Assembly (NCBI RefSeq): GCF_000378105.1
Contig: NZ_KB899268.1
Coordinates: forward strand, 1 to 42,247
Direction of reading: 5' to 3'
Length of the DNA: 42,247 bases
Origin: Rubritalea marina DSM 17716
GTDB taxonomy: Bacteria > Verrucomicrobiota > Verrucomicrobiia > Verrucomicrobiales > Akkermansiaceae
How positions within the stretch are numbered: position 1 is the first letter of the stretch; the number at the start of each line of letters is the position of its first letter. The notes beneath the pieces were generated by a model that was not told the DNA's origin, did not search any database, and saw only the letters and a program-made list of their open reading frames with translations. This document shows, piece by piece, positions 2,355-24,577 of the stretch. The position numbers and the translations under genes were made by a program.

Positions 2355-3989
2355 ATGTCAGACAAACCATTTTACTATCAGAAGCAATTCCCTCTTGGTG
2401 CAGACAAGACGGAATATGAACTCATTAGCACCGAGGGTGTGAGCGTGCAGCAATTGGGTGATCAAGAAATCCTCAAAGTAGAGCCTGAGGCTCTCACGTT
2501 CCTAGCAAATGAGGCGATCAAGGCTGTGTCCTTCAAGCTACGTCCATCGCATCTCAAGCAAGTCGCGGCGATTTTAGACGATCCTGAGGCTACAGATAAC
2601 GATCGCATGGTAGCTCTAACCTTGCTACGCAATGCTGAAGTGGCAGTGAATGGGATTTTACCGAATTGCCAAGACACTGGCACAGCGATTGTGATGGGTA
2701 AGAAGGGCGAGAATGTCTTCACTGGGGCTGACGATACTGAGGCGATTTCGCACGGTATTTACAAGACCTACACCGAGGAAAACTTACGTTACTCCCAGAC
2801 CGTGCCCCTCACCATGTACGAGGAGACCAACTCGAAGACCAACCTTCCGGCGCAGATCGACCTCTACGCCACAACTGGCTCTAGCTACGAATTTTTGTTC
2901 ATCACCAAAGGTGGTGGCTCCGCGAACAAGACCTTCCTTTTCCAAGAGACCAAGGCCTTGCTCAATCCTGATTCCTTGAAGTCGTTCTGTCTCGCGAAGA
3001 TGGCCACCTTAGGAACGTCTGCTTGTCCACCCTACCACCTCGCGATTGTCGTGGGTGGCACATCCGCTGAGGCGAACCTGAAGACGGTGAAGCTGGCATC
3101 CACCCGTTACTACGATGAGCTGCCCACTGAAGGCAACGAGCACGGCCAAGCATTCCGCGATGTCGAGCTTGAGAAAGAGCTCCTCGAGCTCTCCCGTGAC
3201 ATTGGCATTGGTGCCCAGTTCGGTGGCAAGCACTTCGCGCTTGATGTGCGTGTGGTTCGCCTCCCTCGCCACGGAGCTTCCTGCCCAGTCGGCATCGGTG
3301 TCTCATGTTCCGCTGACCGCCAAGCGAAAGCGAAGATCACCAAGGACGGCATCTTCCTTGAAAAACTCGAAACCAACCCAGGTCAGTACATTCCAGAAGA
3401 ATTCCGCGACTGGAAATTCAAAGGGGTGGAAATCAATCTCGACGAGGGGATGGACAAGACGCTCAAGACACTTTCACAGTACCCGGTGACCACGGCACTC
3501 TCGCTCAATGGGCACATCATTGTGGCACGCGACATTGCCCATGCGAAGCTCAAGGAGATGATCGATGCGGGTAAGGAACTTCCTGACTACGTTAAGGATT
3601 ACCCCATTTACTACGCTGGGCCGGCCAAGACGCCAGAAGGACTGCCCTCAGGTTCCTTTGGCCCGACCACTGCGGGTCGTATGGATTCCTACGTGCCAAT
3701 CTTCCAAAAAGAAGGAGCCTCGATGGTCATGCTAGCTAAAGGCAACCGCTCGAAGCAAGTGACCGATTCATGCAACGAGTACGGTGGCTTCTACCTAGGG
3801 TCGATCGGAGGACCTGCCGCCATTTTGGCCAAAGACCACATCAAGAATGTGGAAGTGGTCGACTTCCCAGAGCTTGGGATGGAAGCGGTATGGAAGATCC
3901 GCGTGGAAGACTTCCCAGCCTTCATCCTCGTCGATGACAAAGGCAACGACTTCTTCGAGCAGCTCAATTCCTGCCCGACTTGTAAGTAG
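2355..3989 (+). CDS. fumA: Class I fumarate hydratase (iron-sulfur)
   Basis: The enzyme hydrates fumarate to L-malate in the TCA cycle, in the cytoplasm, using an oxygen-sensitive [4Fe-4S] cluster. The product of 544 residues matches the class I FumA/FumB family along its whole length (family about 548). The three cluster cysteines are visible in [19 protein letters not shown] and GVSCSADR. Family blocks such as [19 protein letters not shown]-like, [19 protein letters not shown] and DDKGNDFF are intact. The frame opens at a GTG at 2325, but homology begins at the ATG at 2355, which I prefer. No clear ribosome binding site is visible before either. The gene stands alone and is closed by a hairpin shared with the convergent patB-like gene. 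Confidence 0.95.
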
Positions 3990-7705: not shown

Positions 7706-7779
7706 GCACCCGTAGCTCAATTGGATAGAGCATCTGACTACGAATCAGAAGGTTAGGGGTTCGACTCCCTTCGGGTGTA
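7706..7779 (+). tRNA. tRNA-Arg(ACG), copy 1
   Basis: A full cloverleaf is visible. The acceptor stem GCACCCG pairs with CGGGTGT, the D arm is GCTC/GAGC, and the anticodon stem TCTGA/TCAGA encloses CTACGAA. The T arm is AGGGG TTCGACT CCCTT. The anticodon ACG at 7740-7742, read as ICG after deamination, decodes CGU/CGC/CGA arginine codons. CCA is not encoded. Confidence 0.96.
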
Positions 7780-7828: not shown

Positions 7829-7902
7829 GCACCCGTAGCTCAATTGGATAGAGCATCTGACTACGAATCAGAAGGTTAGGGGTTCGACTCCCTTCGGGTG
7901 TA
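7829..7902 (+). tRNA. tRNA-Arg(ACG), copy 2
   Basis: This is identical in every base to the copy at 7706-7779 and lies 123 bases further on, with the anticodon ACG at 7863-7865. The two copies are separated by 49 unrelated bases and share one terminator, so they are probably cotranscribed from a tandem duplication. CCA is not encoded. Confidence 0.96.
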
Positions 7903-12171: not shown

Positions 12172-14115
12172 TTAGTCATCGTCGAAGATGTCGAGTGCGG
12201 CAAGCTTTTTGAGAGTGCTTGTGCCGATGACGAAGATGCCTTCTTGGTTACTTGCTTGTGCATAGAAGAAGGCGCTACTGCGTGATGATGTGGCGGGTGC
12301 GAGGAGCAAGGTGTATCGGGTGATATCGGCAGGATTGCCCTCATTGTCGTATTCTTGTACTGATATAGTAACCTCGAAATTGGCATTCGCCAATGCCTTG
12401 AGGGCATTTGGGTCCTGGGGACTGAGTCTCCGGAAGGCGGTAAGCTGGTGGCATTCATTGAGGAAGAACTTGGCGCGGTTCGGGTTGATTCGTTCGCTGA
12501 CGTCGCGATCCCCTAGTTGGCCAGTGAAGCTATCTGCGATAAAGTCGTACTGTACTGAGAGTTTGGCTTTTCCGCGTTGCTGGGCGGTGAATTCTACGAT
12601 GTCGATGACTGGGAGTGTCCAGATTGTTTTTGGTAGCCAGTTCCAGGTGCGATTGGGGATTTCGGCCACAAACTCTGAGCTGAGTTCCCAGACAACCGGG
12701 GAGCCTTGGAGGTTGGCATAATGTTGTGATGTCGGGGTGCCGTCATCCTCAGTGCCGTGTACGGTGCTGATGCGCAGACGGGTAGGAGCTTCGTGGAAGC
12801 TGAGGAAATCGATGATCATCTGTGGTTCGTCGAGCCCGTAGGGGCTGAAGTCGGTGGCAGCATCGCTGGAAAAGTCTTTGATTGGCATGCTCGTCACAAC
12901 CTTCAGGAAGTCTGCTAAAGTTGATTCGTCGATGTCTTCTTCTGGCCGTCCTTGTCGTAGGAGTTTGAAGCGGCCCTTGGGTTCGCGAGCGACGATGACA
13001 GGCTCTGCATAGGACTGCGGGGAGCGAATGATGATGGAGCGGAGCTCGGCGCGTTGTTGGGCATCCCAATCGAGAATCGTACGTGAGCGCAGCGCGTTGA
13101 TGGATTTGGGCAGCTGGGTGATGTAGTTGGAGGTGCTTTCCGTGGCAATGAGGGGCAAGACCATGACGACGGGGCGATTGCTGATGGTGGCGAAGCAGGT
13201 GGAAGCTGTCTGGGCTGCTTGGTAGATGGTGAGGACGACTTCTTCGTCGCTGGAGAAATTGCTGATTCCGATTTCTGTGACGCGTGGGTTCTCTGGGAGG
13301 GGGACGTCCTCAGGCTGGTGCAATGCGATGGCTTCGATCTTTGAGAGGTTGGTGAGGTAATCGACTACTGCTTGTTTGTCGGTGGCGAGCTCCAGCGGTT
13401 TGGTGATGCGCCAGGCGCTGGCGGTGTTTTCGCGCGCTAGGATGATGTCTGACTGGCTTTGATTGAGTCGGATTTCTTTGAGGTCTTGGAGGTTGAGTGC
13501 GAAGGCGCGCGGGTCACGGAATTTAGCGAGTTGTTCGTCGAAGAGGTTGCTGAGGTTTTCGCTGGGGTCGGAGCACAGGTAGATGTGATCGCTAAGGCCG
13601 GGCTGATGCGGGCGGATGTAGATCGAGGGGAGGAATTTTTCCTCATCTTCCTCATCTTGATGAAGCCACGCGGAGGATTTGCCAATGCTGAAGCTGGTGA
13701 TGGTGTTTCCAGTGCTGTCGCTGAGCGTGACTTTGATGGTGTCATCCGAGAAGCCCAGAGCTTTGAGGTCCTTTTGGGTGGATGGCATCGAGTCGATGAC
13801 TTCGGTGGTGAGGGCGAAGCGTAGTAGCTTGTCGATGACCATGGGGCCGTCGGCACGGTCTTGCCATGGGCTGGAACCAAACCAGAGGCCATTGCTGGGG
13901 TCGAAGTCGAACTGGAAGTTTGGGATTTCACTGCCAGTGATAGAGATTTGGGTGGTGGTTTGGACTTTGCTGGGGAAGAGTCGTTGTCCATTGGGCACAC
14001 TTGCTTCGCTTGCAAAGTAGGCGCTGGGGCTGTCGATGCGGCCAAGCTGCACAAGGCTGATCGTGGCGAGAGCCACGGTGATCAGGATCAGAAAGATGGT
14101 GGCGATGGTCTTCAA
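12172..14115 (-). CDS. DUF4340 domain-containing membrane-anchored protein
   Basis: The 647-residue protein has one N-terminal membrane helix (about 4-26) and a large periplasmic part. The DUF4340 domain is suggested by the WRITKPLELATDKQAVVDYLTNL segment, with DLKEIRLNQS before it. A second repeat of this type follows (FKLLRQGRPEEDIDESTLADFLKVV). Proteins of this family usually accompany GldF/GldG-like transporters, as here, where it lies 19 bases after the gldG-like gene. The role is unknown and is inferred to be part of an envelope ABC system. Confidence 0.85.
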   Translation of the reverse strand: MKTIATIFLILITVALATISLVQLGRIDSPSAYFASEASVPNGQRLFPSKVQTTTQISITGSEIPNFQFDFDPSNGLWFGSSPWQDRADGPMVIDKLLRFALTTEVIDSMPSTQKDLKALGFSDDTIKVTLSDSTGNTITSFSIGKSSAWLHQDEEDEEKFLPSIYIRPHQPGLSDHIYLCSDPSENLSNLFDEQLAKFRDPRAFALNLQDLKEIRLNQSQSDIILARENTASAWRITKPLELATDKQAVVDYLTNLSKIEAIALHQPEDVPLPENPRVTEIGISNFSSDEEVVLTIYQAAQTASTCFATISNRPVVMVLPLIATESTSNYITQLPKSINALRSRTILDWDAQQRAELRSIIIRSPQSYAEPVIVAREPKGRFKLLRQGRPEEDIDESTLADFLKVVTSMPIKDFSSDAATDFSPYGLDEPQMIIDFLSFHEAPTRLRISTVHGTEDDGTPTSQHYANLQGSPVVWELSSEFVAEIPNRTWNWLPKTIWTLPVIDIVEFTAQQRGKAKLSVQYDFIADSFTGQLGDRDVSERINPNRAKFFLNECHQLTAFRRLSPQDPNALKALANANFEVTISVQEYDNEGNPADITRYTLLLAPATSSRSSAFFYAQASNQEGIFVIGTSTLKKLAALDIFDDD

Positions 14116-18612: not shown

Positions 18613-20007
18613 CTAGAATGACTTGCGAAGGTGGCTGGGCAAGATGCCAAGTTGGTCGCGATATTTGGCGATCGTGCGTCTGGCGATTTTCACTCCTTGT
18701 TCCTTGAGAGTTTTTTCAATTGCCGAATCCGAGAGTGGTTTTTTCGGGGATTCTTCGGCAATCATCTTTTGGATGGTGTCGCGAATTCCTGTGTTGGAGA
18801 CCTGCTGGCCGGACTCCGTGGTGTAGCCGCTGGTGAAGAATGAGCGGAGTTCGATAAGCCCGTGTGGAGTTTGGATGTATTTAGCCGCGACGGCGCGTGA
18901 GATTGTGGCTGGGTGCACTTCGATTGCCTCAGCCACTTCATTCATGGTCATCGGCCTGAGTGCTTTCATCCCCTGAAGGAGGAAGTCGCTCTGGCGCAGG
19001 ATGAGTTGCTGCGCGAGCTTGTAGAGGGTGTCTTGGCGTTGAGAAAGTGAGCGGATCAGGATTTTGCCGTCGCGGATTTGGTCGCGCAGATACTGACGTG
19101 CTGACGAGTCGTCGGTGCTCGTCATGAGGTCCTTATAGGCATTGCTGATCGAGATGTCTGGGATGTTTGCGTTGGTGAGCTGGATCGCCCACTCGTGGCT
19201 GGCGTCACGGTAAATGATGATGTCTGGTGTGATGTGCGGGTTTGAGGTGGGATCAAACTCCGCGCCAGGATCTGGGGTGAGGGTAGCGATGGTGTGTGAT
19301 GCTTCGTGGATGGCGTCAATATTCACTCCTAGCGCTTTGGCTATCTCGGGGAAGCGTTTGCGGGCGAAGGCGTCGAGGTGTTCGCTGACGATGCGGTATT
19401 CGAGGCTGCCGAGGAGATCACGTTTGGCGAGTTGAATCATCAATGATTCTTGGAGGTCATTGGCGGCGACGCCCGGTGGGTCAAAGTTCTGCAATGCGAC
19501 TTGAGCGCGCTCTGCCTCTTCGAGGGTGAAGTCGCTGGAGAGGGCGATGTCCTGAAGCGAGGTTTCCATGAAGCCGCGATCATTGATGTAGCCAATGAGT
19601 ACGGTGGCTACTTGCTTGAGCTTGTCTGGGTGTTCGCTGTGAGCGAGTTGGCTCAGGAGGTGTTGCTGTAGGGTTTCTGGCGCGACGATCGAATTGTAGA
19701 GGTGGTCGCGTTTTTCCTGGTCATCAATGCCATCATTGGTGCTTCGGCGTTCCGTGATTTGGAGTTCGCGGAAGTCATCGTCGAGGTCTGAAAGAGTCTC
19801 CATGTCGTGCTCCGCATCAGCCTCACGGAAGTCGTCGAGCTGTTCATCGTTTTGGTCAATTTCCAACACTGGGTTGGTGACGATGGCTTGTTGGAGGATT
19901 TGTCCTAGTTCGAGTGAGTTGGCCTGGAGTACCTCAAGACTCTGCCGCATTTGCGGTGAGAGTATCTGAGATTGGCTCAGATTTTGGTGGAGATCGATGG
20001 CGGCCAT
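18613..20007 (-). CDS. rpoN: RNA polymerase sigma-54 factor
   Basis: RpoN directs RNA polymerase to -24/-12 promoters that need AAA+ activators. The 464 residues contain region I with glutamine-rich helices (LSQSQILSPQMRQSLEVLQ), an acidic region II (about 50-90), the core-binding domain, the helix-turn-helix near HPATISRAVAAKYIQTPHG, and the RpoN box ARRTIAKYR at 442-450, which differs in one residue from the usual ARRTVAKYR. In many Gram-negative bacteria rpoN lies between lptB and hpf. Here it is alone, about 6 kb away from them. No sigma-54 activator is in the window. Confidence 0.95.
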   Translation of the reverse strand: MAAIDLHQNLSQSQILSPQMRQSLEVLQANSLELGQILQQAIVTNPVLEIDQNDEQLDDFREADAEHDMETLSDLDDDFRELQITERRSTNDGIDDQEKRDHLYNSIVAPETLQQHLLSQLAHSEHPDKLKQVATVLIGYINDRGFMETSLQDIALSSDFTLEEAERAQVALQNFDPPGVAANDLQESLMIQLAKRDLLGSLEYRIVSEHLDAFARKRFPEIAKALGVNIDAIHEASHTIATLTPDPGAEFDPTSNPHITPDIIIYRDASHEWAIQLTNANIPDISISNAYKDLMTSTDDSSARQYLRDQIRDGKILIRSLSQRQDTLYKLAQQLILRQSDFLLQGMKALRPMTMNEVAEAIEVHPATISRAVAAKYIQTPHGLIELRSFFTSGYTTESGQQVSNTGIRDTIQKMIAEESPKKPLSDSAIEKTLKEQGVKIARRTIAKYRDQLGILPSHLRKSF

Positions 20008-20179: not shown

Positions 20180-20208
20180 TTGACGCCTAAAGTAATCAAC
20201 GATATGAA
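20180..20208 (+). promoter_or_regulatory. Sigma-70 promoter upstream of the UCA tRNA-like gene
   Basis: TTGACG (20180-20185) and TATGAA (20203-20208) are separated by 17 bases, close to the ideal spacing. Transcription would begin near 20215, about 38 bases before the tRNA-like gene. The call is from consensus match only. Confidence 0.6.
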
Positions 20209-20252
20209 TATTTCGTCATGGCGCTAGTGCCAGTTAGACAAGATATTAAATT

Positions 20253-20344
20253 GGAGAGTGTTGCCTTCCTGGTGGTAGCCGCGGTTTTCAAAACCGTTGA
20301 GGGGCTGTTATGGTCCTTGGTTGGTTCGATTCCTTCCCTCTCCG
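20253..20344 (+). tRNA. selC: tRNA with UCA anticodon, selenocysteine tRNA-like (possibly decayed)
   Basis: A tRNA-like fold with a long variable arm is visible. The anticodon arm GCGGT-TTTCAAA-ACCGT gives anticodon TCA at 20288-20290, which reads UGA. The loop TTTCAAA, the variable arm start TTGAGGGGC, the GGTTCGATTCC T-loop block and the discriminator G resemble bacterial selC. Several stems are imperfect: the acceptor (GGAGAG with CTCTCC) has a T-C mismatch at pair 7, the D stem has C-A and U-U mismatches, and the T stem has two adjacent U-U mismatches. Acceptor plus T stem total 12 base pairs, one fewer than usual for bacterial tRNA-Sec. It could be a functional variant, an unusual serine-type tRNA, or a pseudogene. 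A good promoter precedes it. No other Sec gene is in the window. Confidence 0.6.
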
Positions 20345-20440: not shown

Positions 20441-21040
20441 TTAGTGACGTTGTTTGTACCAGAGTGAGGTGTCTGGGTGTAGAAGGTGCTTGAGCTCGAG
20501 TGAATCTAGCTTGAATTTCTGAATGATGTGTTCGAGCAGGATGATCGAGGCGGCGGCGTCGTAGAGTGCGTCGTGCCAGCTTTTTTGGGGTACGAGCTGT
20601 GAGACTTTCTCGCTGAGTTCGAGCATTTCGCAGAGCTCACCAAGCGAGTGGCTCGGCGCGTCAGGAAATGCCGATCGAGCTAGCTGGAGGGTGTCGATCC
20701 AGGGGCCAAAGCCGTGGCCTGGGAAGGCGTGGAGGAAGCGTTTTTCCGTGCCGTGGCCGTGGGCGACGACGGCCGCGCCTTTGAGTCGGCGTTTGATGCT
20801 GGGCCAAAGTTGGAAGAATTTGGGGGCGTCTTTGAGGTCTTGGTGTGTGATGCCGTGGACTTTTTGCGCTGCCCAGGTGATGTCTTGGTCGGTGTGGATG
20901 TAGGACATCCAAGTGTCTGAGCACCCTAAGTTTTGCTGCCAAGTGCAGGTACCGATCTGCACTGGAGCGTCGGTTTTGCCTGGCGCGGTACCGGCAGATT
21001 CAAAATCAATGGCGGTGAAGGTGGTGTTGGCGATCAGCAT
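20441..21040 (-). CDS. DEDDh 3'-5' exonuclease (DnaQ-like)
   Basis: The roughly 199-residue protein has the epsilon-like exonuclease fold. Exo I is the aspartate and glutamate of FTAIDFESAG near the N-terminus, Exo II lies near VVAHGHGTEKRFL, and Exo III epsilon is WHDALYDAAAS with catalytic His and Asp. The insertion VHGITHQDLKDAP is typical of DnaQ-like proteins. It would trim DNA or RNA 3' ends in the cytoplasm. It is too short for a DNA polymerase and lacks a clamp-binding motif that I can see. ATGs nine bases apart compete as start; I take the one before LIANTT. It is divergent from trpE. Confidence 0.87.
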   Translation of the reverse strand: MLIANTTFTAIDFESAGTAPGKTDAPVQIGTCTWQQNLGCSDTWMSYIHTDQDITWAAQKVHGITHQDLKDAPKFFQLWPSIKRRLKGAAVVAHGHGTEKRFLHAFPGHGFGPWIDTLQLARSAFPDAPSHSLGELCEMLELSEKVSQLVPQKSWHDALYDAAASIILLEHIIQKFKLDSLELKHLLHPDTSLWYKQRH

Positions 21041-21081
21041 GGCTGGCATAGTTTTGGCACAAAGCGCTGGGGCTGGCTATC

Positions 21082-21116
21082 ATGAATTGGTGGTGAGCTC
21101 GGCGGGTGATGAGCTC
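21082..21116 (+). promoter_or_regulatory. Candidate trp leader peptide and hairpin upstream of trpE
   Basis: A five-codon frame, ATG AAT TGG TGG TGA at 21082-21096 (Met-Asn-Trp-Trp), is the first part. A 6-bp hairpin follows, gagctc at 21095-21100 with gagctc at 21111-21116, overlapping its stop codon. It is in a different frame from trpE. This resembles the tryptophan-codon sensor of a trp attenuator. A classic U-tract terminator is not visible before trpE, so the mechanism is uncertain. Confidence 0.35.
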
Positions 21117-21209
21117 TCGGTGGTAGCTGGTTGCGTGTTGGTTGATTCTTTGGGTGAATGGCCACATTTCTCACTTGCAAGTTGTGCGAGGCTACGCATT
21201 CTCAAGGCC

Positions 21210-22715
21210 GTGAACCATTTGCCTGTTAAACCTGAACTTGAGGAATTTTGCAGTCTCGCCGAGCGCGGGAATGTGGTTCCTGTTTATGCGCAACTTGCAG
21301 CGGATTTTGAGACTCCTGTATCGGCCTACTTGAAGGTAGCTGATGAGAAGGGTGCATTTCTGTTGGAGAGTGCTGAGAGTACAGATGCGGGTGGTCGTTA
21401 CTCCTTTGTAGGGAGCGATCCTCGAGCTGTGTACACCGCGTATGGAAAACAGATCGAGTGGCGGATGGGCAATGAGACACAATTTATCACTGCAGAAGAG
21501 GATGTGCTGGCGGAGCTAGAAAAGCTCATGGCTCCGTACAAACCAGTCCAGCACGGCGACCTTCCACCATTCTACGGTGGCATGGTCGGTTACCTTGGCT
21601 ACGATGCGGTGCAGCAATTTGAGCCGACCATTGTTGAGCAACCAGAAGATTCGTTGGATCTCCCAGATGCGGTGTTTATGCTCACTGACACGGTGCTTGT
21701 TTTCGATCACAAACTACGACGCTTGTTGGTGATTGCGAATGCCTTGCTCAGCGACTACGACTCTGCGGCGGCTGCGCACGCGGCAGCGGTGGCGAAGATT
21801 GAAGCTTGGTTGGCAAAGCTGGACGAGCAGGTGCACGTGGCTCCATTGAATGGGCTCACTGAGTATCCTGAGCCAGAGATCAAGAGCAATACGACTCAAG
21901 AAGAATTTGAGCAGATGGTGCGCGACGCCAAGGAATACATCGCCGCTGGTGATGCTTTCCAGATTGTGCCGAGTCAGCGGTTTGAGGCTGATTACCAAGG
22001 TAGCACGGTGGATCTCTACCGCGCGCTGCGCCATGTGAATCCATCACCCTACATGTTTATCCTTCAGCTTGATGGGTTTGCCCTGGTGGGGAGTTCTCCA
22101 GAAGTGCATGTGCGTTCCATCAATGGTCGCATCGACATTCGTCCGATTGCGGGTACCCGCTGGAGAGGGAAGTCAGCTGAGGAAGATGATGCTCTTGCGG
22201 CTGATCTGCTGGCTGATGCTAAGGAATGTTCTGAGCATTTGATGTTGGTGGATCTTGCACGGAACGATGTGGGGCGTATTGCGAAGAAGGCGAGTGTCAC
22301 GGTGGATGATTTCATGATTGTGGAGCGCTACAGCCACGTGATGCATATTGTGTCTAACGTACATGGCGAATTGGCAGAGGGCCACAGCGCCTACGATGTG
22401 CTACGCTCTACCTTCCCTGCGGGGACCGTGAGTGGTGCGCCGAAAATTCGTGCGATGCAAATCATCAATAGCTTGGAGAAGAACAAGCGGTCTACCTATT
22501 CTGGAGCGGTTGGGTACTTTGGTTGGGATGGGAGTCACGACAGCTGTATCACGCTGCGCACCTGTTTGCTAAAGGACGAGAAAGCATACGTTCAGGCTGG
22601 AGCAGGCGTGGTAGCGGATTCCAACCCTACCTACGAGTACGAGGAGACTCGGAATAAAGCGACGGGCATGCTGCGTGCTGTTGAACTCGCTAAAACCATT
22701 TCAAGCAACGCATAA
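21210..22715 (+). CDS. trpE: Anthranilate synthase component I
   Basis: TrpE makes anthranilate from chorismate, with ammonia from the TrpG subunit, in the first step of tryptophan synthesis. The frame is open from 20913, but family homology begins at [15 protein letters not shown], just after a GTG at 21210, which I choose as start (501 residues). That GTG has an aagg shortly before it. The chorismate-binding domain carries [22 protein letters not shown], the [13 protein letters not shown] block, [13 protein letters not shown] and [11 protein letters not shown]. The N-terminal PVSAYLKV segment belongs to the feedback-binding domain. It lies 17 bases before trpG. Confidence 0.93.
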
Positions 22716-22732: not shown

Positions 22733-23296
22733 ATGCTTTTAGTTATCGATAATTACGACTCATTCACCTACAACCTCGTGCAGTATTTTGGCGAGTTGGG
22801 GCAGGAAATGAAGGTGGTGCGCAACGACCAGATCACCATTGAGGAGATCGAGGAACTGGCGCCAAGCCACATTTGTATTTCCCCGGGGCCATGCACGCCG
22901 ACTGAGGCGGGGGTCAGCTGTGCGGTGATCGAGCACTTTGCTGGCAAGATTCCAATCTTTGGGGTCTGTCTTGGCCACCAGAGTATTGGCCAAGTCTTTG
23001 GTGGGGATGTGGTGCGTGCTGAGAAGTTGATGCATGGCAAGACCTCACCGATCCAACACCAAGGGATGAGTGTCTTTGATGGTCTACCAAGCCCGTTCAC
23101 TGCGACTCGCTACCATTCATTGGTGGTGAAGCGCGATACGCTACCGGATTGTCTAGAGATCACTGCTGAGACGGCAGATGGCGTGATCATGGGGCTACGA
23201 CACAAGGAATTCGAAGTGCATGGTGTGCAGTTCCACCCTGAGTCGATTCTCACCGAGCACGGCCGCGAGATGCTGTCGAATTTTCTCAAACTTTAG
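22733..23296 (+). CDS. trpG: Anthranilate synthase component II (glutamine amidotransferase)
   Basis: The 187-residue class I amidotransferase frees ammonia from glutamine for TrpE. The catalytic cysteine is C79 in [12 protein letters not shown], and the His and Glu are in VQFHPESIL near 170. The opening [19 protein letters not shown] and [10 protein letters not shown] are typical. TrpG and PabA cannot be separated by sequence, and a single protein may serve both anthranilate and aminodeoxychorismate synthases. It is 17 bases after trpE and 15 before the next gene, so the three form one operon. Confidence 0.93.
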
Positions 23297-23311: not shown

Positions 23312-24577
23312 GTGAATTACGATGATGCGATAGCGAGTTTGCCCCACGCGGGTCTGCGCGACGGGCAATCTTGGTTATTTTCACCCAAGCCATTTTCCTT
23401 GAGCAAGCGTGAGCTGCGAAAGATCAAGTCGTTGGGTCATGTGTTGTCCCAATTTCAGCGTGCTAGCGATAGTTTGTACCAGCGTTCAAAGCGTGGATCG
23501 GTAGCGCCGTGGGTGGCGCAATTGCTTGACGCAGGGAAGCCAGAATGGATGCTGCAGCAACAGTCTGCGCCTGAGTTTCAGGAGTTGCGCCCGCGCGTGA
23601 TTCGGCCCGACCTCATCCTCACGGACGATGGCTTTGCGCTGACTGAGCTCGACTCGGTGCCCGGTGGTATGGGGATCACGACTTGGCTGAGTCAGCTGTA
23701 CACGGAGCATGGATTTGATGTGGTGGGCGGCCGCGATGGCATGCCTGAGGGCTTCAAGAAGCTCATGCCTGAGGGGGGGCGGATTTTGGTTTCTGAGGAA
23801 TCCGCTGACTACCGTCCGGAGATGGAGTGGCTGGCCTCGCAACTTGGTGAAGGGTTTCGCGTGGAGACAGCGGAGACTGCAGTCCCGGATGGTTCAGATG
23901 CCTATCGTTTTTTCGAGTGGTTCGATTGGGAGAATATTTCAGCGGCTAAGGATTGGGCAGCTCAAGCGAACCTGACCTCTCCGTGTAAGCCGCATTTGGA
24001 AGAGAAGCTCTGGCTTGCCCTCTTGTGGTCTCCAGCGTTGCGGCCGCTGTGGGAGGGGATGATGCGACATAGCCATCTCAATGCGGTGCGCGATGTGGTG
24101 CCATTTTCTTGGGTGATCGATCCACAGCCATTACCACCACACGCGGCACTCCCACGACTGGATGTGCACTCATGGGATGAGGTGGCTCAATTGAGCCAAA
24201 AGCAACGTGAACTTGTGGTGAAGATCAGTGGCTTCAGCGAGTTGGCTTGGGGCTCGAAGAGCGTGGCCATTGGCCACGACATGTCGAAAGACGATTGGCA
24301 GGAAACGATTGATACGGCACTCGAACAGCATGGCTCGCAGCCGTGGTTGATGCAGGAGTTTCACGCTGGGCGCGTGGTTGAGCACCCGTACTTTGATGCC
24401 GAGACCGGGGAGGTGAAGTTGATGCAGGGTCGCGTGCGTCTCTGCCCGTATTACTTCACAGACCGATCAGGGTATACCGAGCTCTCGGGGATATTGGCTA
24501 CGATCGTGCCGTCTGATAAAAAGAAAATACACGGCATGAAGGACGGAATCCTGGTGCCGTGTATGCTGGAAGAATGA
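23312..24577 (+). CDS. Unknown protein, ATP-grasp-like, in the trp operon
   Basis: I do not recognise a named family with certainty. The 421-residue protein begins at a GTG and has no signal peptide or membrane helix. Two parts recall circularly permuted ATP-grasp or glutathionylspermidine-synthase-like enzymes: RPDLILTDDGFALTELDSVPG near 95-115, with Asp, Glu and Asp suited to bind metal, and VVKISGFSELAWGSKSV near 300, with a lysine in ATP-binding context. An arginine-rich block (LMQGRVRLCPYYF) follows. It is 15 bases after trpG, so it is probably translated from the same mRNA. Its substrate is unknown, and a link to tryptophan or chorismate chemistry is only inferred. Confidence 0.6.
   Translation: MNYDDAIASLPHAGLRDGQSWLFSPKPFSLSKRELRKIKSLGHVLSQFQRASDSLYQRSKRGSVAPWVAQLLDAGKPEWMLQQQSAPEFQELRPRVIRPDLILTDDGFALTELDSVPGGMGITTWLSQLYTEHGFDVVGGRDGMPEGFKKLMPEGGRILVSEESADYRPEMEWLASQLGEGFRVETAETAVPDGSDAYRFFEWFDWENISAAKDWAAQANLTSPCKPHLEEKLWLALLWSPALRPLWEGMMRHSHLNAVRDVVPFSWVIDPQPLPPHAALPRLDVHSWDEVAQLSQKQRELVVKISGFSELAWGSKSVAIGHDMSKDDWQETIDTALEQHGSQPWLMQEFHAGRVVEHPYFDAETGEVKLMQGRVRLCPYYFTDRSGYTELSGILATIVPSDKKKIHGMKDGILVPCMLEE

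Follow-up and report, generated by a model that had tools for sequence, protein, structure and literature searches.

A probable lineage-specific form of selenocysteine tRNA with inherited U.U layers in Rubritalea marina and related Verrucomicrobiales

We found that a stretch of DNA from Rubritalea marina DSM 17716 (contig NZ_KB899268.1, 42,247 nucleotides, here called the window) carries a selC gene that very probably encodes a functional selenocysteine tRNA (tRNASec) of a form specific to its lineage, the Rubritalea-like Verrucomicrobiales. We base this on the inheritance of the gene together with selA, selB, and selD and on the presence in the genome of UGA codons at catalytic-type positions that it could read. 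Judged from the aligned sequences, the tRNA represents a variant of tRNASec particular to this lineage, having a 6/6 acceptor/T helix and inherited mismatches, and the odd U-U helix appears to be a kept feature, not damage, that is common to dozens of related bacteria.

The selC gene and its surroundings

The gene lies at 20253-20344 on the plus strand and was called tRNA-SeC with anticodon tca by ARAGORN, in agreement with the first-pass annotation, which had described a selC-like tRNA with a UCA anticodon. It matched RF01852 over its full length (54.3 bits, E 2.3e-8), exceeding the gathering score of 47 by 7 bits. Of 25 RF01852 matches in the 3.01-Mb genome (95.5% complete), it was the sole one above the cut-off, and the next-best two (L002, L003) were tRNASer. 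The predicted fold had an energy of -34.9 kcal/mol (z -2.53), and 3 of 200 dinucleotide shuffles folded equally well. Both the UCA anticodon and the discriminator G73 (position 20344) are present, and the CCA end is absent from the gene, the DNA reading GCTT from 20344 on. When up to 3 mismatches were allowed, a 30-nt middle piece of the gene still had a single site in the genome, without a second copy or fragment, and a 20-nt T-arm pattern occurred once in the window. Viral contigs searched with one pattern of the tRNA gave 0 matches. The parts of the gene and its neighbors are as follows.

20253..20344, plus strand: selC, tRNASec(UCA) including discriminator G73, CCA not encoded (ARAGORN; RF01852, 54.3 bits)
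20253..20258, plus strand: acceptor stem 5' strand GGAGAG, partner of 20338-20343; 6 pairs in 35/35 tRNAs (a selection criterion), with two-sided changes at two pairs
20259..20262, plus strand: TGTT linker, U7 and G7a unpaired with 66 and 65; 7.66 paired in 0/35, 7a-65 unpaired in 6/35
20263..20279, plus strand: D arm with 7-nt 5' strand, TGGT loop, and 6-nt 3' strand, one bulge and one U.U; bulged 6-pair model 87% paired
20281..20297, plus strand: anticodon arm, TCA at 20288-20290 (ARAGORN); 100% paired
20300..20318, plus strand: long variable arm; 98.6% paired, two-sided changes in 6/6 pairs
20319..20337, plus strand: T arm GGTTGG-TTCGATT-CCTTCC, with tandem U.U at 20321.20335 (50.64) and 20322.20334 (51.63), from the alignment of 35
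20338..20343, plus strand: acceptor stem 3' strand CTCTCC, from the alignment of 35
20180..20208, plus strand: putative promoter-like TTGACG-N17-TATGAA, read from the letters and absent from the consensus scan
18613-20007, minus strand: rpoN (sigma-54), open reading frame (ORF) beside selC
20441-21049, minus strand: RNase T-type exonuclease, ORF beside selC
20913-22715, plus strand: trpE ORF
22733-23296, plus strand: glutamine amidotransferase

These neighbors are ordinary chromosomal genes. In a comparison of 51 loci with flanks of about 1.5 kb, rpoN stood next to selC in two, L201 and L036. The promoter-like string had been taken as an argument for expression and placed 38 bases upstream of the tRNA. 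The string itself exists, but the spacer is 44 bases. It was not listed by a promoter consensus scan, in which the second hexamer has to end in T, and an alignment of nine genomes (that of the window and 8 congeners), inspected by eye, showed nothing comparable ahead of selC; it is thus weak evidence for expression.

Elsewhere in the window, two tRNA-Arg(ACG) genes of equal length and score (7706-7779 and 7829-7902) are separated by 49 bases. Since a 5S rRNA gene lies at 124-239, near the contig start, the contig end is probably an rRNA operon. Two long ORFs had no family match, one at 12172-14115 on the minus strand (NCBIfam only) and the other at 23312-24577 on the plus strand (Pfam and NCBIfam).

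A 12-layer acceptor/T helix with conserved U.U layers

To compare the tRNA with others of its type, we assembled 35 sequences from covariance-model matches in 58 genomes, 387 genomes of the phylum, and one further locus; 58 loci (L001, L009-L037, L174-L201) were screened by script. To be included, a tRNA had to have G73, a D loop reading TGGT, a 3' arm of 12 nt, and an acceptor stem of six pairs; these features are therefore conserved by construction, while the letters of the T-stem played no part in the choice. The screen left out tRNASer loci, the types with 13-nt arms, and a different 12-nt type whose 5' part is shorter (L191, L193, L195, L197).

The acceptor/T helix of the window tRNA has 12 layers, 10 of which are standard pairs, and not 13 bp: six acceptor pairs are followed by G48-C66, G49-C65, U50.U64, U51.U63, G52-C62, and G53-C61, and U7 is without a partner. 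The D stem contains one U.U and one bulge. The first-pass annotation had likewise counted 12 pairs instead of 13 and noted mismatched stems, and this description held. From the T-loop to G73, all 35 tRNAs have 12 nt, one fewer than canonical 8/5 tRNASec. U50.U64 was found in 32/35, and layer 51.63 was U.U in 22, G.U in 5, G-C in 4, A-U in 3, and C-G in 1. The layers next to these were firm, with G48-C66 invariant (35/35) and 49-65 paired throughout (30 G-C, 3 C-G, 2 A-U; 5 two-sided changes).

We also examined other ways to pair the helix. A 7:66 pair was formed in 0/35, so that the seventh acceptor pair of the 7/5 subtype is missing, and the 7a-65 pair of an 8/4 model was formed in 29/35 and broken in 6/35. 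Because the 8/4 alternative fails and 49-65 and 48-66 stay firm, the most fitting description of the helix is a stack of six acceptor pairs and a T-stem of six layers, from G48-C66 to G53-C61 ("6/6"). Over the 35 sequences, 91.7% of the cells of this structure were paired, compared to 78.4% in shuffles and 41-58% when the structure was slid.

The T-stem was fully paired in three of the 35 tRNAs (L016, L182, L189). The mean predicted T-arm energy was -6.8 kcal/mol for these three, -4.1 kcal/mol for the 10 with a single U.U, and -2.7 kcal/mol for the 22 with the tandem U.U.

The D arm combines a long stem, seven nt on its 5' side, with a 4-nt loop, which is longer by one base in L201. Layer 14.26 (alignment columns) failed in 26/35. 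A D stem of 7 pairs was also considered and rejected, since only 72% of its cells were paired in the 35 sequences, compared to 87% in the bulged 6-pair model.

Sec machinery and UGA-containing genes

A search of the genome for the Sec machinery, as the first-pass annotation had recommended, returned all three genes over their curated cut-offs: selA (G000:C2:291429-292775, 494.8 bits), selB (C13:15057-16979, 290.9 bits), and selD (C4:174005-174934, 381.2 bits). The selD gene has one in-frame TGA, within the motif SCGG-U-ASKL. An internal TGA was found in 28 of the 33 genomes having selD, and at the same site in all 17 that were inspected.

Starting 26 nt past the selD UGA, 15 of the 17 sequences share a hairpin whose loop reads RGTYY; the letters of the hairpin are absent from the other two (L284, L286). 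With those two set aside and L282 identical to L281 over the piece, 14 distinct sequences remained; among these hairpin bearers, 96.4% of cells were paired and 4/6 pairs showed two-sided change. Of 500 shuffles, 0 scored as high in pairing, 2 in pairs with two-sided change, and 22 in pair types. The conservation of the hairpin partly reflects the coding constraint of the protein, which is still contained in the shuffle test. In form it is similar to a bacterial SECIS such as that of E. coli fdhF.

An AhpC/TSA family search of the genome gave 13 matches, two of them with an internal TGA, both reading ASW-UGA-PPCR..APQLV.

L297:1588: thioredoxin-like W-UGA-PPC gene 1 (AhpC/TSA search)
L298 (record C1:39264), minus strand: thioredoxin-like W-UGA-PPC gene 2 (AhpC/TSA search)

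With its TGA read as Cys, the first of these matched Thioredoxin_8 (E 4.2e-16). We take W-UGA-PPC to be the WCPPC motif of thioredoxin with Sec replacing the first Cys, and the two genes likely encode selenoproteins. Single-sequence folds of both gave nothing clear. Three genes, selD and the two thioredoxin-like ones, therefore carry UGA at a catalytic-type position. The proposed search for UGA-containing selenoproteins and SECIS elements gave these candidate genes and the SECIS-like hairpin of selD, but no Sec-containing formate dehydrogenase, which had been named as the example: the genome had 6 TIGR01591 matches, 0 over the cut-off and 0 with an internal stop. SelW/Rdx family matches in the genome numbered 0.

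Distribution of the tRNA type and SelA history

SelA sequences from 55 genomes were placed in a tree by a quick method with SH-aLRT support only, without bootstrap; the tree was left unrooted (midpoint for drawing). One group of 36 rows, with an SH-aLRT of 100 and a long stem branch, held all 34 SelA-bearing genomes with this tRNA type; 31 of its rows have U50.U64, 3 have a paired T-stem, and 2 are untyped. No selA match was found in G039, the genome of the 35th tRNA. The genomes outside the group comprised 14 typed as having 13-nt arms, two of the other 12-nt type (G328, G386), and three that were untyped. The paired T-stems are nested within the group (G051; G069 and G221) and look like reversions on this unrooted tree. 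Among the genomes of the phylum with 13-nt arms, a group of nine (L177-L181, L183, L185-L187) has U49.C65 in the selC T stem, and four of these also have C50.A64, so that mismatches stand at adjacent positions in another background.

A contig scan that demanded the letters of the tandem U.U, and served for names and half-copies, gave at least 116 stretches, including chance matches in unrelated bacteria (e.g., Clostridium, Flavobacterium). Among the records listed with this pattern were Rubritalea, Persicirhabdus, Akkermansiaceae, other Verrucomicrobiales, and Puniceicoccaceae bacterium K14.

Among the 66 selC-like matches re-scanned in these loci (at least 116 listed), five were 3' halves of selC that start near the anticodon loop and have unrelated DNA upstream (L098:2555-2602, L109:6743-6791, and others in L075, L080, and L096); a sixth one flagged, in L132, was a full selC copy. 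Since ORFs with Phage_integrase matches adjoin the half-copies of L098 and L109, islands appear to use selC as an integration site in relatives. No 3' half-copy was seen in the window's own genome, where the 30-nt piece occurs once. In L106, two 3' parts of selC (1210-1258 and 3732-3780) lie 2.5 kb apart, each with a D-arm-like stretch upstream and the second cut by the contig end, and an ORF with a Schlafen/AlbA_2 domain lies between them.

DISCUSSION

The window tRNA shares the UCA anticodon, G73, the long variable arm, and the 4-nt D loop with long D stem with the bacterial 8/5 tRNASec (E. coli selC type, RF01852), but it has 12 layers and not 13, an unpaired U7, U.U layers in the T-stem, and an extra 5' nucleotide in the D stem. 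A 12-bp tRNASec as such is already known. The pertinent sections of the Secmarker paper report 47 tRNASec, spread over several phyla, whose acceptor stem has 7 bp, and a 12-bp AT-stem in Gammaproteobacteria, Clostridiales, Spirochaetes, two Alphaproteobacteria, Rubrobacter, and Dehalogenimonas, besides a Cloacimonetes type (PMC5330540); a 7/5 form is described for Epsilonproteobacteria in the corresponding part of PMC4607533. As far as those sections go, these tRNAs resemble ours in a 3' strand one nucleotide shorter, G73, the accompanying Sec machinery, and, in some, an extra linker or D-stem nucleotide. They differ in having 7 acceptor pairs, whereas here 7.66 never pairs (0/35) and G48-C66 fills the layer. 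The sections on 12-bp tRNASec in PMC5330540 and PMC4607533 make no mention of U.U layers in the T-stem. By term search, Verrucomicrobia, Akkermansia, Opitutae, and the PVC group are unnamed in the main text of PMC5330540, and Verrucomicrobia is unnamed in PMC8124441, PMC7609411, and PMC13188914. Literature searches on tRNASec, selenocysteine, selC, or selB in Verrucomicrobia, on Rubritalea, and on the U-U mismatch gave, among the matches listed, no title or abstract opening describing this form. As far as these searches reach, the 6/6 form with U.U layers is new.

The bacterial route, as outlined in part of PMC7609411, has SerRS charging the tRNA with Ser, SelA converting it with selenophosphate, and SelB delivering it at UGA codons with a SECIS. 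By this known pathway, SerRS would charge the R. marina tRNASec with Ser, SelA would use the selenophosphate of SelD to turn Ser into Sec on the tRNA, and SelB would carry the Sec-tRNA to UGA codons with a SECIS-like hairpin behind them.

A tRNASec must escape EF-Tu and be taken by SelB, and the accepted answer to how it does so is helix length together with an antideterminant. According to passages of PMC11231383, the affinity of EF-Tu is set by the T-stem pairs 49:65, 50:64, and 51:63; EF-Tu prefers a 12-bp acceptor domain and refuses E. coli tRNASec through an antideterminant at 7:66, 49:65, and 50:64, and Aeromonas SelA recognizes a 12-bp domain. Because the U.U layers sit on pairs that set EF-Tu affinity and the length barrier of 13 bp is lost, U.U at 50:64 and 51:63 may weaken EF-Tu binding and/or suit the SelA and SelB of the lineage. 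We tentatively propose from the positions of these layers that the U.U pairs help to keep this tRNASec off EF-Tu and on SelB. It is possible, though we would not favor it, that the conserved (tandem) U.U took the place of the lost 13-bp length, either keeping EF-Tu away or being recognized by the lineage's own SelA and SelB, or both, and that the 13-nt group reached a similar state through U49.C65 and C50.A64. The loci examined also provided 28 distinct non-Sec tRNAs; U50.U64 was present in two of these (one Trp, one Ser) and U51.U63 in none, and the 10 distinct non-Sec tRNAs examined from the window's own genome had no T-stem mismatch. A single U.U is therefore not an absolute block to EF-Tu, since it occurs in 2/28 non-Sec tRNAs, and the mismatch is not indispensable, since 3/35 tRNAs of the type have a fully paired T-stem.

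A serious rival, to which we give about an even chance, is that the tRNASec is functional but its U.U neutral, an early change that was tolerated and never repaired and that has no role in the choice between EF-Tu and SelB. The SelA tree allows a single origin of U50.U64 at the base of the group, a single U.U also occurs in 2/28 other tRNAs, and the nested genomes with paired T-stems (G051; G069 and G221) retain selA. The drop in predicted T-arm stability would fit slow drift equally well. Against neutrality, the U.U persists across deep SelA divergence, a second U.U is adjacent in 22/35 while 49-65 stays paired, and the group with 13-nt arms has its own T-stem mismatches (U49.C65, plus C50.A64 in 4/9).

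An allo-tRNA-like suppressor with an 8/4 or 9/3 helix, which would rely on EF-Tu to bring Ser or a different amino acid to UGA, had been one of two readings offered by the first-pass annotation and is very improbable. Its 12 layers, long variable arm, and UCA anticodon would suit this reading, and as described in part of PMC7609411, allo-tRNAs and selC* tRNACys share the Sec-like outline and a 12-layer helix; but allo-tRNAs pair as 8/4 or 9/3 and selC* tRNACys has U73 and an A51a bulge (PMC7609411), whereas the window tRNA has G73 and no 51a bulge, the 8/4 pairing, the one of the two that was counted, fails (7.66 in 0/35; 7a-65 broken in 6/35), and the genome, whose Sec system is complete, has this gene as its sole RF01852 match above the cut-off. 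The other, a decaying selC pseudogene whose mismatches gathered once Sec use was lost, is extremely improbable: the non-standard layers in the T and D stems and a score just 7 bits over the Rfam cut-off speak for it, but the Sec trait has users here, with selA, selB, selD, and three UGA-containing genes, the same mismatches recur in 32/35 (50.64) and 22/35 (51.63) with compensatory changes adjacent to them, and neither a further RF01852 match above the cut-off nor a duplicate of the 30-nt piece was found in the genome. Lack of a tRNA score, of selA, selB, and selD, and of the locus in relatives had been named as signs of a chance match or pseudogene, and on each point the result was the opposite.

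Read as a lineage-specific tRNASec, the gene cautions that a selC with T-stem mismatches need not be decaying. It also offers a natural test case for what the choice between EF-Tu and SelB requires, in a lineage whose helix has stayed shorter and whose T-stem has stayed mismatched, and a natural 12-layer tRNASec is of practical interest for engineering Sec insertion.
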